The position numbers and the translations under genes were made by a program. 64,000 bases of DNA from Plasmodiophora brassicae (taxonomy: Eukaryota; Endomyxa; Phytomyxea; Plasmodiophorida; Plasmodiophoridae): positions 372,001 to 436,000 of the forward strand of contig JASFAU010000001.1 in the NCBI GenBank assembly GCA_039704465.1, in the 5' to 3' direction. This document shows, one piece after another, positions 40,814 through 44,266 of this stretch. How positions within the stretch are numbered: position 1 is the first letter of the stretch; each line of letters starts with the position of its first letter. Under the pieces are notes generated by a model, which was given only the letters and a program-made list of their open reading frames with translations, made no database searches and had not been told where the DNA came from.

Positions 40814-42063
40814 TCAAGAAGCGGCGTCCACGTTAATCCGTCTCACACAAGTGAACGAGATCGCGCCTCCGGCTGTAACGCAGACGATTTCCCCAGAAGG
40901 CAGGCGCCCAACAGGAACTGGTTCGAAACTGTTATTCGTGCACCCCGTGCCCAAATTGCCGTGCTCATTCCAACCGAAGGCCCAGAGCCTTGTCTCGCCA
41001 AGGCACAACGAATGCTCTGATCCACAGCAAATACTTCGAACGCGCTCCGGAACTGGAACGATCCGAGGGGCGGGCCCGCCCTGTGGCGTACCCAGTTGGC
41101 CAAAGTCTAGTCGCGCATTGGTTAACGATGACGAATACAAAACCAAACGGCGTCGGCCTGACCTGATCGACCCCATGCAAGCACGGACCCCACGCTTGTC
41201 AGCGCGATGACGTGCGACCAACCAGAACGAACGTCGACAATCGTCTGCCGGCCGTCCATATCTGTTGGGCGCCATTCGCTGCAAAACGACGCGGAGGTGT
41301 TTCTACCAAGCTGGCCATAGCGATTCTCCCCGGCAGATATCACGGCTCCACTTCCTTAGCAACGATCAGCATCCCACATGACGACAAGCAATGGACAGAT
41401 AAACCTGTCAGTACCACTGAGTGGCGTAGTCCACAACTGGCGAAACGGGCATCGATGGACGCTGAACGTACAGGCCTCGCCACCATGGTCTTGCTTGGAG
41501 CAATTCCTAGTTGGCCACTGCAGGGACACCCATTGATCCTTGGGAGGACGCTGGATAATCGGTTGGACGACGTACAATTTGTTTTGTCCCCAGGCATACA
41601 CGGATCCATCATTGGCAACTGCAATGCTATGTCTGAAACCACACGATATCTGACGAACTTGGCAGATATCGGGAATCAGTTGGCACTGGAACGGGTCCCC
41701 ATCACGGCCGATTTGTTCCGGATGACCCCACGATGCAACTCGGCCGTCACGTGTGAGAACCAAGGAATGCCACCAGCCGCAGGCAACGGTTTCCACAGGA
41801 ACCGCGAACTGAACCGTCGTCGGCGGATGAATCCTGTTGTCCCGCTCCGCGCCGCATTGCCCATGCGAATTGGCGCCCCAGGCGTGCACCTGCCCGCTGC
41901 GGACCGCCAGACAATGCGTCCCACCGCACTGCACTACATCAGCGTCTTCTAACCCCGTCCATCGTCGCGGCTCAACAGCATCGTCAACGCCGCACTCAAT
42001 CGTTGACAGCGACCCCCAGCAATACCACGACAACGCGGTACTCGCCTGGGCGGCATTCGGCAT
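40814..42063 (-). CDS. RCC1-repeat protein, SERGEF-like
   Basis: Seven-bladed RCC1 propeller. The start ATG 42063 leads straight into the first blade (SWYCWGSLSTIECG); successive blades show CGGTHCLAVRSGQVHAWGAN, VACGWWHSLVLTRDGRVASW, CGFRHSIAVANDGSVYAWGQ, SAGENRYGQLG, RSGWSHVIALTSVGSVLAWG, and CCGSEHSLCLGETRLWAFGW with NEHGNLGTG. The WNEHG blade is characteristic of SERGEF (DelGEF), which regulates secretion. At least two or three introns are needed near 41140 and 41350-41480. The stop is 12 bp from the convergent kinase gene. Its 5' end is remarkable: the left end of the transposon begins at 42069. Confidence 0.78.
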
Positions 42064-42068
42064 TATAT

Positions 42069-42104
42069 CCCTACTCCGTGGGCTTCACCGTAATATATTA
42101 CGGT
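42069..42104 (+). repeat. Left terminal inverted repeat
   Basis: Starts CCCTACTCCGTG, then six bases (GGCTTC) and the 18-bp palindrome ACCGTAATATATTACGGT at 42087-42104. It pairs with 44084-44119 on the opposite strand, differing mainly in the short stretch between the two blocks (GGCTTC here against TAA there). Confidence 0.8.
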
Positions 42105-42277
42105 TTAGACTTTGGCCTGTCTCCATAATTTTATAAAGGATCCGAAAATTCGTCTAGCTGTACAGTTCGACAGGACCTGCCGGCCAATGAATTTTGGCGA
42201 AGACGGCAAGGACTGATCGTTCGTCCTCATCGCACGACATTTTTTACAAGCTCCCTCACAAGTCCGGTGGACCTGCG

Positions 42278-42301
42278 CAAACCGTAATATATTACGGTTT
42301 G
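42278..42301. repeat. Internal palindrome copy near the left end
   Basis: A perfect 24-bp palindrome with the core ACCGTAATATATTACGGT and CAA/TTG arms, about 194 bp centre to centre from the terminal copy. Likely a protein-binding site, for example for the transposase. Confidence 0.85.
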
Positions 42302-42477
42302 AAATGAAAATTTGTGGAAAGCCAGTTACGTTCTTAGCGACAGTGATGTCTGTGTGTAAAATTCAGTTATGATCCCCGTGAGCGGCAGAGCGCGTTCGGA
42401 GCGCGATTGGGGTTTCACTCTGATTGCACACCTGGTATCCTCCTGAACCTGAGCGACGCCAGCAGTAGGTCAATGAC

Positions 42478-43889
42478 TCAGTAGAAACTGCAAAGCAGAA
42501 TGCCATGTGAGACAACCTGTGATTCAATGGTGTCATCGCGACGCTTTCGCGGCCGTCCCCGGCCACGCTTGGCGGCACCAGCATTCAACTCGGGACCACC
42601 GTTGCCATCAGAATGGGCGGCAGGCGAGGCAATGCCAGATGTCTTCTTCGAAGCGACAATTTCTATGGCGCGTTGTGAGCGTTGCTCCTCTTCGTCTTCT
42701 TTCATACTGTACGCCCGCTTTGGGACCGACCGCTTCTTCATCGGCAAGTGGCGCAGAGCATGGAAGTCGCAGCACGCACGATGGTCGCTTCCGACAGGAG
42801 CAGTACGAACTGTTTACGCGTATAGCAGTAATGGTTTGTCTCGCGGACACACAAGACGCAGCCTCGAACACTTCGCTTAAGACGCTCGTTCGTTTCCGGA
42901 TCTTGGATCAGCTTCTCCATCGGGTGATGGGCGGAACTCCTGTGCAATTGCGGAATCAGAACACAATGTCAACCACGTTTGGGATGTTACCTACCTGATC
43001 GTCCAGCCTTCATCGGTCCTAAAGACGGAAAGAGCATTACGTCGAGGTATCTTGGGGATGAGGTCCCCGAGATTTTGAACGACGCTTCTCTCTGCAAGTA
43101 CACCTAGGAACGTCGACAGCCTCGTTGAGAATGTCTCGGCCGGCCTGGATCACGAAGTCTTCTATGGTCTCCTCTGAAACAAGGTCTCGGCGTAACGCTT
43201 TGAAAGTCGACAAGGCCGTCTTCTCGTCCTGAAGGTCGTGTCTGCATTTCCAGTACCTTGGAATATTCATTCAGTCAACAGTGGTAAACAAGACTGAGAG
43301 CACGTGACTACCTGAAAGCAATACAGGTGTCCAACCCGCAGGCTTGGAAGAGCAGGTGGATGACGTACTTGACCTCGAATGGAAGGCTGTTTCGTGGGTA
43401 CCTCAACTTATTGACATCGAAAGTTGCCTTGTCGACGCAACGATCTCGTCGTCGAGGACTAACCAGGTGTTCTCCTTGACGAACAGTTTCCGCGAAGCGG
43501 CGACAATCGCTTGCTCAAGAAATCGATAGTTGGAGTATAGTCTGTGGTGTCCAGGAACGTAATTATTAATGTCACAGGAGCCGGACCGCCCGACCGTCTC
43601 GAACGCCCGGAGATGGTTGACCAGCGTCCGGAACAGTTTGGAGGGCAGCGCCCTCGTTCCGAACAGCGAGGCGCCGTACTTGCAGCGCCTGATCGATCCT
43701 GGCGGTGGTGGCCTTTGAGTGATCCGCGAGGCGCTGCTTGAAAACGGCCGACACGAAGTAGTCTTCCATCAACAACTCGAAGCGTGGCGGATCGCTCGGG
43801 ATATTCCACCCATTGGTCCCGTTGAACCGCTTCGTAACTGCTGCTTGAACTGACTTACGAGCGCTCGCACTGCTCGACGCCGGCGCCAT
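42478..43889 (-). CDS. piggyBac-like transposase gene, multi-exon, possibly decayed
   Basis: ATG 43889 opens SASARKSVQAAVTKRFNG and PPRFELLMEDYFVSAVFKQR. Downstream segments in shifting frames read as one protein: GASLFGTRALPSKLFRTLVN, HRLYSNYRFLEQAIVAASRK and ENTWLVLDDEIVAS (first catalytic acid region), then YPRNSLPFEVKYVIHLLFQA with CGLDTCIAF, ETIEDFVIQAGRDILNEAVD, a Cys/His segment RGCVLCVRETNHYC with CCDFHALRH, and an AT-hook tail KRGRGRPRKRR. Order and spacing match the piggyBac DDE domain and C-terminal zinc-binding region. Between DDEIVAS and YPRNS the frame changes within about 35 nt; this is either a tiny intron or a frameshift, so I cannot say whether the gene is intact. Confidence 0.6.
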
Positions 43890-44019
43890 GGCAACAGCTC
43901 TGGCTGTGGTGGCCCAAAAATTGAAGTTGTTGGCCTGGATGTTCGTTCCTATTTTTACAGTTCACCACCATCAGTTTCGAGCATGACGAGTACCCCAAAG
44001 AGACACAGGCAGCACCCCT

Positions 44020-44045
44020 CTAAACCGTAATATATTACGGTTTAG
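44020..44045. repeat. Internal palindrome copy near the right end
   Basis: A perfect 26-bp palindrome with the same core and CTAA/TTAG arms, 63 bp centre to centre from the right terminal copy. The flanks TTTAGCCGA (after this copy) and TCGGCTAAA (before the terminal copy) are themselves inverted, so the two form a larger nested inverted structure. Confidence 0.85.
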
Positions 44046-44083
44046 CCGATCTACAACCAGGACCTCGCAGAGCTATTTTCGGC

Positions 44084-44119
44084 TAAACCGTAATATATTA
44101 CGGTTTACACGGAGTAGGG
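44084..44119 (-). repeat. Right terminal inverted repeat
   Basis: A palindrome of 24 bp centred on the AATATATT core (44084-44107), then CACGGAGTAGGG (44108-44119), the reverse complement of the left terminus. The next four bases are ATAT. Confidence 0.8.
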
Positions 44120-44266
44120 ATATTGGCAAGTCGCCGCAGTTCGGGAGGTCGCAGTCAAAAAAGAGTTGCCAAAATCTGGACAGGCGTCCGGCCAAATTCG
44201 ATATTTTCGCCAGGACCTCTCTGCTGAACGCCTTGGCGCTCGCAGAGCGCGTTGCCCGCTGGTCCA

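Follow-up and report, generated by a model that had tools for sequence, protein, structure and literature searches.

The window analysed here is a 64,000-nt stretch of the Plasmodiophora brassicae genome (contig JASFAU010000001.1, positions 372,001 to 436,000 of the forward strand), in which positions are counted from its first letter. Between positions 42065 and 44123, ATAT flanks included, it holds an element of 2,051 bp with 12-bp inverted ends. With high probability (about 0.9), the element belongs to a divergent piggyBac-like group of cut-and-paste DNA transposons and is an internally deleted, non-autonomous member of it. A first-pass annotation, made from the letters alone, had described inverted ends flanked on both sides by ATAT, and the sequence bears this out. 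The features of the element are as follows:

42065 to 42068, no strand: ATAT, most likely the left 4-bp target duplication (basis: ATAT at 8/8 family ends)
42069 to 42080, plus strand: left terminal inverted repeat, CCCTACTCCGTG (window sequence and genome 12-mer scan)
42087 to 42104, no strand: subterminal palindrome 1, ACCGTAATATATTACGGT, a candidate transposase binding site
42278 to 42301, no strand: subterminal palindrome 2
42481 to 42813, minus strand: C-terminal tail remnant with the AT-hook-like KRGRGRPRKRR (46% identity to the C4 relative, E 5e-17)
42741 to 42968, minus strand: Cys/His-rich end remnant, piggyBac CRD-like, matching the Cys-rich end of the C4 relative (54% identity, E 4e-13)
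42994 to 43270, minus strand: remnant of the part that links the third catalytic Asp with the Cys-rich end, in two frames (matches P0004, E 1.6e-10 and 1.1e-4)
43311 to 43514, minus strand: remnant with the third-Asp motif VDKATFDVNKLRYP (C4 relative, 73.8% over 42 aa, E 2e-19)
43406 to 43768, minus strand: remnant with the first-Asp motif WLVLDDEIVAS (C19 relative, 31.6% over 95 aa, E 1.3e-5)
43436 to 43445, minus strand: internal-deletion junction, first-Asp into third-Asp motif
43575 to 43961, minus strand: N-terminal remnant with MAPASSS (resembles a fragment near C13:266500, E 9e-6)
44020 to 44045, no strand: subterminal palindrome 3
44084 to 44107, no strand: subterminal palindrome 4
44108 to 44119, minus strand: right terminal inverted repeat, CACGGAGTAGGG (window sequence and genome 12-mer scan)
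44120 to 44123, no strand: ATAT, most likely the right 4-bp target duplication (window sequence and family comparison)

Through a scan of the 25.34-Mb genome (21 contigs), the exact 12-mer CCCTACTCCGTG was detected at eight ends, which come from five insertions. A chance 12-mer was rejected as an explanation, since the control (the same 12-mer in reversed letter order) has a single occurrence in 25.3 Mb. Both ends are kept in three insertions, namely the window copy on C1, C12:878403-880459 and C17:631742-638605, and only the left end in two (C12:312938 and C10:1124008). The C12:878403-880459 copy is 99.7% identical to the window copy, the differences being 5 substitutions and one 2-bp indel; the C17 copy is 99% identical and carries two inserts; the C12:311637-312938 copy, of which only the left part is present, is 98% identical; and C10:1124008 retains the left end plus diverged pieces. 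ATAT adjoins every one of the eight ends (5/5 sites), and it is concordant in all three copies with both ends, while the outer flanks of the five insertions are unrelated to one another. It is extremely improbable that the window copy began as an ordinary piggyBac with TTAA flanks that later mutated to ATAT. A few beetle elements do lack identifiable duplications or sit off TTAA, according to passages of one report (PMC12732532), but the five ATAT sites with unrelated outer flanks, three of them with ATAT on both sides, refute such an origin unless all derive from one insertion. Near the element ends lie four perfect palindromes, which the first-pass annotation had not described. A scan with AAACCGTAATATATTACGGTTT, allowing up to 2 mismatches, returns 13 genome sites, every one within window-family copies, and these palindromes may serve as binding sites for the Cys-rich domain of the transposase.

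Of the two inserts in the C17 copy, the larger (C17:634024-638375) is 4,352 bp long, consists mostly of ~147-bp tandem repeats with an 8-bp flanking duplication, ACAGCTCT, and looks like a mobile satellite array. The second (C17:632007-632430) is 424 bp long, with an AACTT-repeat end and a roughly 15-20-bp duplication, and resembles a short interspersed element.

On the minus strand, a gene with LVLDDEIVAS, a Cys/His-rich end and an AT-hook had been proposed. All three segments (the last as KRGRGRPRKRR) are present there, but they are broken and lie across several frames, and the Pfam AT-hook match of the tail is weak (E 3.8). A first-Asp profile matches the first-Asp remnant of the window copy (E 4e-4). 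The third-Asp motif reads VDKATFD; in the C4 relative this motif is preceded by KTKGG. The distance from the start of WLV[LI]DDE to the start of the third-Asp VD is 29 nt in the window copy versus 1,849 nt in the C19 relative, so that the window copy has lost about 1.8 kb, including the second Asp and the nuclease domain treated below. With the first- and third-Asp motifs within about 9 bp of each other, an intact, intron-split transposase in the window was rejected. The deleted state is common to the window, C12:878403 and C17 copies, and a full coding region is found in none of the five window-family insertions. Since the deletion is shared, the transposase by which the family spread presumably came from elsewhere, and the window copy would have been moved in trans by a full-length relative. 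The remnants of the window copy match relatives of one clade at C4:1423703, C9:562540 and C19:175788, and the window pieces connect with the group through a chain of relatives. A Pfam search for a transposase family, DDE_Tnp_1_7 included, matched none of six pieces of the window copy; the copy is internally deleted and divergent.

Two inverted structures accompany these relatives. Just upstream of the C4 relative's frame (L049:2670-3136) lies an inverted repeat of 208 bp, whose complementarity is 98% and whose spacer is 51 nt long, and at C9:562540-562818 third-Asp fragments stand adjacent on opposite strands as a small inverted duplication.

Three sister families of the same genome (A, B and D) were delimited by comparison of copies, and all three start with CCC, as the window family does. 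In family A (3.83 kb long, with CCCTGGC at its ends), six copies were read; their flanks are TTAA, CTAT, TTAG, TTAA, TTAC and ATAA, the same on both sides in 6/6 copies. Family B (3.67 kb, CCCTGATC ends) was read in five copies, three of them internally deleted, and both sides agree in three, with TTAG, GTAT and CTAT; the mismatched copies carry TTAG/CGTC (C2) and TGGA/TTAG (C16). Family D (3.85 kb, CCCCAAACTCCGTGG ends), which has CTCCGTGG in common with the window family, is represented by three both-end copies, two of them paired solely from the position and orientation of the ends; their flanks are TTAC, ATAA and TTAA (3/3 concordant). Five further family-D-like ends without a read partner adjoin CTAA, TTAG, TTAG, TTAA and GCAT, the end at GCAT having a mismatch. 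Additional matches to the group occur at C4:643715, C6:530859 and C11:970618, and no element ends were found at the matching loci on C14. As an aside on family B, the left TTAG of the C2:1890257 copy equals the right TTAG of the C16:132733 copy; an arm exchange between two insertions might give this pattern, though the remaining TGGA and CGTC do not match.

Among the sister copies with both ends read, 12/14 have concordant 4-bp flanks, all of the form NTAN (N being any base) and three of them TTAA. For the whole group, 15/17 copies are concordant over the 4 bp abutting CCC, and in each of the 15 these read N-TA-N; TTAA accounts for 3/15, and for 0/3 in the window family. In the window, 2.5% of tetramers are NTAN, and ATAT accounts for 8.6% of these. 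ATAT occurs at 5/5 window-family sites versus 0/10 sister sites (Fisher p 3e-4, calculated without the last two family D copies). Duplications of more than 4 bp were rejected (0/15 copies), as was a 2-bp TA duplication of the Tc1/mariner kind for the group, because the flanks agree over 4 bp in 15/17 copies.

Unoccupied counterparts exist for two sister copies, the second of them from a search that covered ten sites, including those of the three complete ATAT copies. The family D copy at C1:1439625 has landed in another member of its family, in inverted orientation; the uninterrupted equivalent of that sequence, inside the element itself, aligns with the joined flanks over 595 bp at 92.9% identity and holds a single TTAC. 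The family A copy on C12 is inserted in a repeat (C12:331399-331509); its joined flanks, with a single TTAA, are matched through the junction at no fewer than 26 further places, and by the matches listed, 24 of these match the whole joined stretch. This repeat is high-copy and nearly identical between places. These comparisons identify the 4-bp flanks of the sister families as real target duplications, and since the sisters duplicate variable 4-mers, ATAT is most likely the target duplication of the window family as well. The suggestion that ATAT marks a divergent group with another target preference is thereby upheld through the variable, TA-centred flanks of the sisters and their unoccupied TTAC and TTAA sites.

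Three observations limit this assignment. No unoccupied ATAT counterpart was found among the 40 of 55 candidates that were scored; the ATAT flanks taken alone also fit a 2-bp AT duplication; and ATAT at 8/8 ends is what an invariant end would give. ATAT (or AT) could then be part of the terminal repeat of a transposon that duplicates TA or AT, in the manner of Tc1/mariner or ISL2EU, with no 4-bp duplication in the window family, and ISL2EU elements also have a YqaJ protein (PMC4482050). We consider this very unlikely, as sisters with like ends and coding sequence duplicate variable 4-mers, two unoccupied sites hold a single copy of the 4-mer, the predicted fold is that of piggyBac, and YqaJ lies within the transposase chain and not on a second gene. 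A related alternative of the first-pass annotation, in which ATAT belongs to a longer conserved repeat with another duplication outside it, found no counterpart among the genome copies.

The group resembles piggyBac (T. ni piggyBac, 6x67; piggyBat, 9c0f) in fold, CCC ends and a 4-bp duplication. The terminal repeats of piggyBac read CC[C/T]T (PMC2872659), a pattern strictly present in three of the four families, namely the window family (CCCTACTC), A (CCCTGGCT) and B (CCCTGATC); family D, which begins CCCCAAAC, falls outside it. In contrast to the TTAA rule of piggyBac, the P. brassicae group uses NTAN, and on this account it is placed as a piggyBac-like sister group and not as a member in the strict sense.

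According to protein structure predictions, the longest relative has a piggyBac transposase fold, RNase-H-like with three catalytic Asp residues, which together with the chain of relatives supports the piggyBac-like identity first proposed for the window gene. Structure models likewise place a lambda-exonuclease-type (YqaJ) PD-(D/E)XK domain between the second and third catalytic Asp, which piggyBac does not have. This domain, absent from the earlier description, is deleted from the window copy. The main protein search used a query that included the nuclease and scored only the 7,991 candidates that had the most words in common with it, so that conservation in 15/15 aligned members leans towards nuclease-bearing relatives; a search with only the first/second-Asp part returned two P. 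brassicae proteins. Where the region is present, the triad is kept (first Asp 9/9, second 8/8, third 15/15). A SAP motif, found in 13/15 aligned members, interrupts the nuclease domain. The nuclease residues D...E-x-K...Q, which we take to be the catalytic residues of the lambda exonuclease/YqaJ family, are conserved, and they are invariant in P. brassicae and Phytophthora proteins as well as in unnamed ones from metagenomes. Two models show the lambda-exonuclease/YqaJ fold, and the nearest folds of the embedded domain are predicted to be lambda exonuclease and end-processing enzymes (MGME1, Dna2, Cas4-like). The domain thus shares fold and residues with lambda exonuclease/YqaJ structures (1avq, 3slp, LHK-Exo 3syy), but differs in being embedded in a transposase and interrupted by SAP. 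Family D contains a single 695-aa open frame running from the first to the third Asp with the nuclease between, and gene model P0005 is alike. The transposase of the group is predicted to end in a Cys-rich domain resembling that of piggyBac, at which zf-Tnp_2 (PF13842) is matched in 2/15 members (best E 2.2e-4), several of the 15 being without a C-terminus, and DDE_Tnp_1_7 is matched in 1/15 (E 0.01). A Pfam family search of the genome gave no match, and control genomes likewise gave none. In a viral structure library, the matches listed include exonucleases and an IS4-family transposase, each matched on its own, and a 1,230-aa protein without a name, for which the TM-scores are low. Among the named relatives that the protein search returned, the labels are SAP domain-containing, hypothetical or unnamed. 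Database proteins that correspond at 93-100% to loci of the genome carry the name P. brassicae (Rhizaria, Endomyxa). Two P. brassicae proteins of this group, P0004 and P0006, are labelled (mitochondrion) despite contigs of 1.68 and 0.80 Mb, which is probably an annotation slip.

In piggyBac, the TTAA rule and footprint-free excision are structurally tied (PMC7351741). Passages of that report describe that the inner pair of TTAA, A-2 and T-3 of the hairpin, is contacted by N440 and a pocket of V414, L416 and Y439, that the outer T and A of the target complex bond each other, which the authors regard as the most likely cause of strict TTAA, and that hairpin opening leaves the old TTAA as a 4-nt end (PMC7351741). 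At the place of Y439-N440, and at equal distance from the third Asp, P0005 has W788-N789, which is identical in 15/15 members; the window's own clade has Y-C (C4) or Y-S (C19, P0003). The transposase of the group may read only the inner TA of its target, the contact between the two outer bases being relaxed, and a fixed inner TA with free outer bases fits such a loss of the outer contact. The 4-nt TTAA end of piggyBac reportedly (work of Mitra, 2008) pairs with the next TTAA without DNA synthesis. NTAN targets would often mismatch the old end, yet the flanks agree in 15/17 copies, which suggests that this end is removed or was never carried. Its removal could be the work of a built-in exonuclease resembling lambda exonuclease, MGME1 or Dna2. 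The embedded nuclease would then take off the donor-derived 4-nt end, or cut the second strand, after which a non-matching new target could be filled in and duplicated.

We tentatively propose, as a possible though doubtful scenario, a separate piggyBac-type branch in Rhizaria and oomycetes whose release from TTAA came with the capture of a lambda-type exonuclease. Lodged in the catalytic core, this enzyme would trim the 4-nt donor end, so that any NTAN could be joined and duplicated. If true, this branch would be among transposons what PiggyMac is in ciliates, where cutting is TA-centred and depends on trimming. PiggyMac of Paramecium, a domesticated piggyBac transposase, is a host gene for DNA elimination, whereas the P. 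brassicae group is a transposon; the cuts of PiggyMac leave 4-base overhangs in which only the central TA is conserved (PMC3408717). Passages of the same review state that the end-processing enzymes were not identified at its date and mention no exonuclease domain (PMC3408717).

The main rival to trimming is that the nuclease makes the second-strand (5') cut at the ends in a TnsA/TnsB-like manner and replaces the hairpin route of piggyBac. In Tn7, TnsA cuts the second strand for TnsB. A PD-(D/E)XK domain with conserved residues would suit this role, and it lies beside the region of the piggyBac insertion domain, which lines the DNA channel (PMC7351741). The rival appears rather unlikely, as the embedded domain comes closest in fold to lambda exonuclease and end-processing enzymes and the transposase triad is also kept. 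The nuclease could also be a passenger outside the transposition chemistry, one that aids copy-number gain via repair or suppresses competing elements. Here ISL2EU (PHIS transposons) offers a parallel: it likewise is a DDE transposon encoding a YqaJ exonuclease domain, and the function of its additional open reading frames is described as unknown (PMC4482050). Its YqaJ is on a separate open reading frame and its transposase belongs to another superfamily (DDE, HTH, THAP), whereas in the P. brassicae group YqaJ is inside the transposase. We would not expect a passenger, since the catalytic residues are invariant across P. brassicae, Phytophthora and metagenome proteins and the nuclease always stands between the second and third Asp.

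Departures from TTAA have been recorded in beetles, though few (PMC12732532). In searches of an open-licence paper library, we found neither an exonuclease described within a piggyBac transposase nor NTAN described as a rule, and no paper on P. brassicae transposable elements and piggyBac; the 2015 P. brassicae genome paper gives 5.4% repetitive and transposable elements (PMC4471660). The group may reveal by what route strict targeting gave way to relaxed targeting in a transposon, and with a piggyBac fold, N-TA-N targets and a built-in nuclease together, this shift becomes directly testable. It may also provide a laboratory transposase with another target preference. As the protein labels of its relatives show, family-based surveys can miss such elements.

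Next to the element, an RCC1-repeat reading frame (41356-42084, minus strand; RCC1 E 1.4e-17) has its ATG (42061-42063) adjoining the left ATAT, and the insertion may therefore lie at or just before the start of an RCC1-repeat gene.
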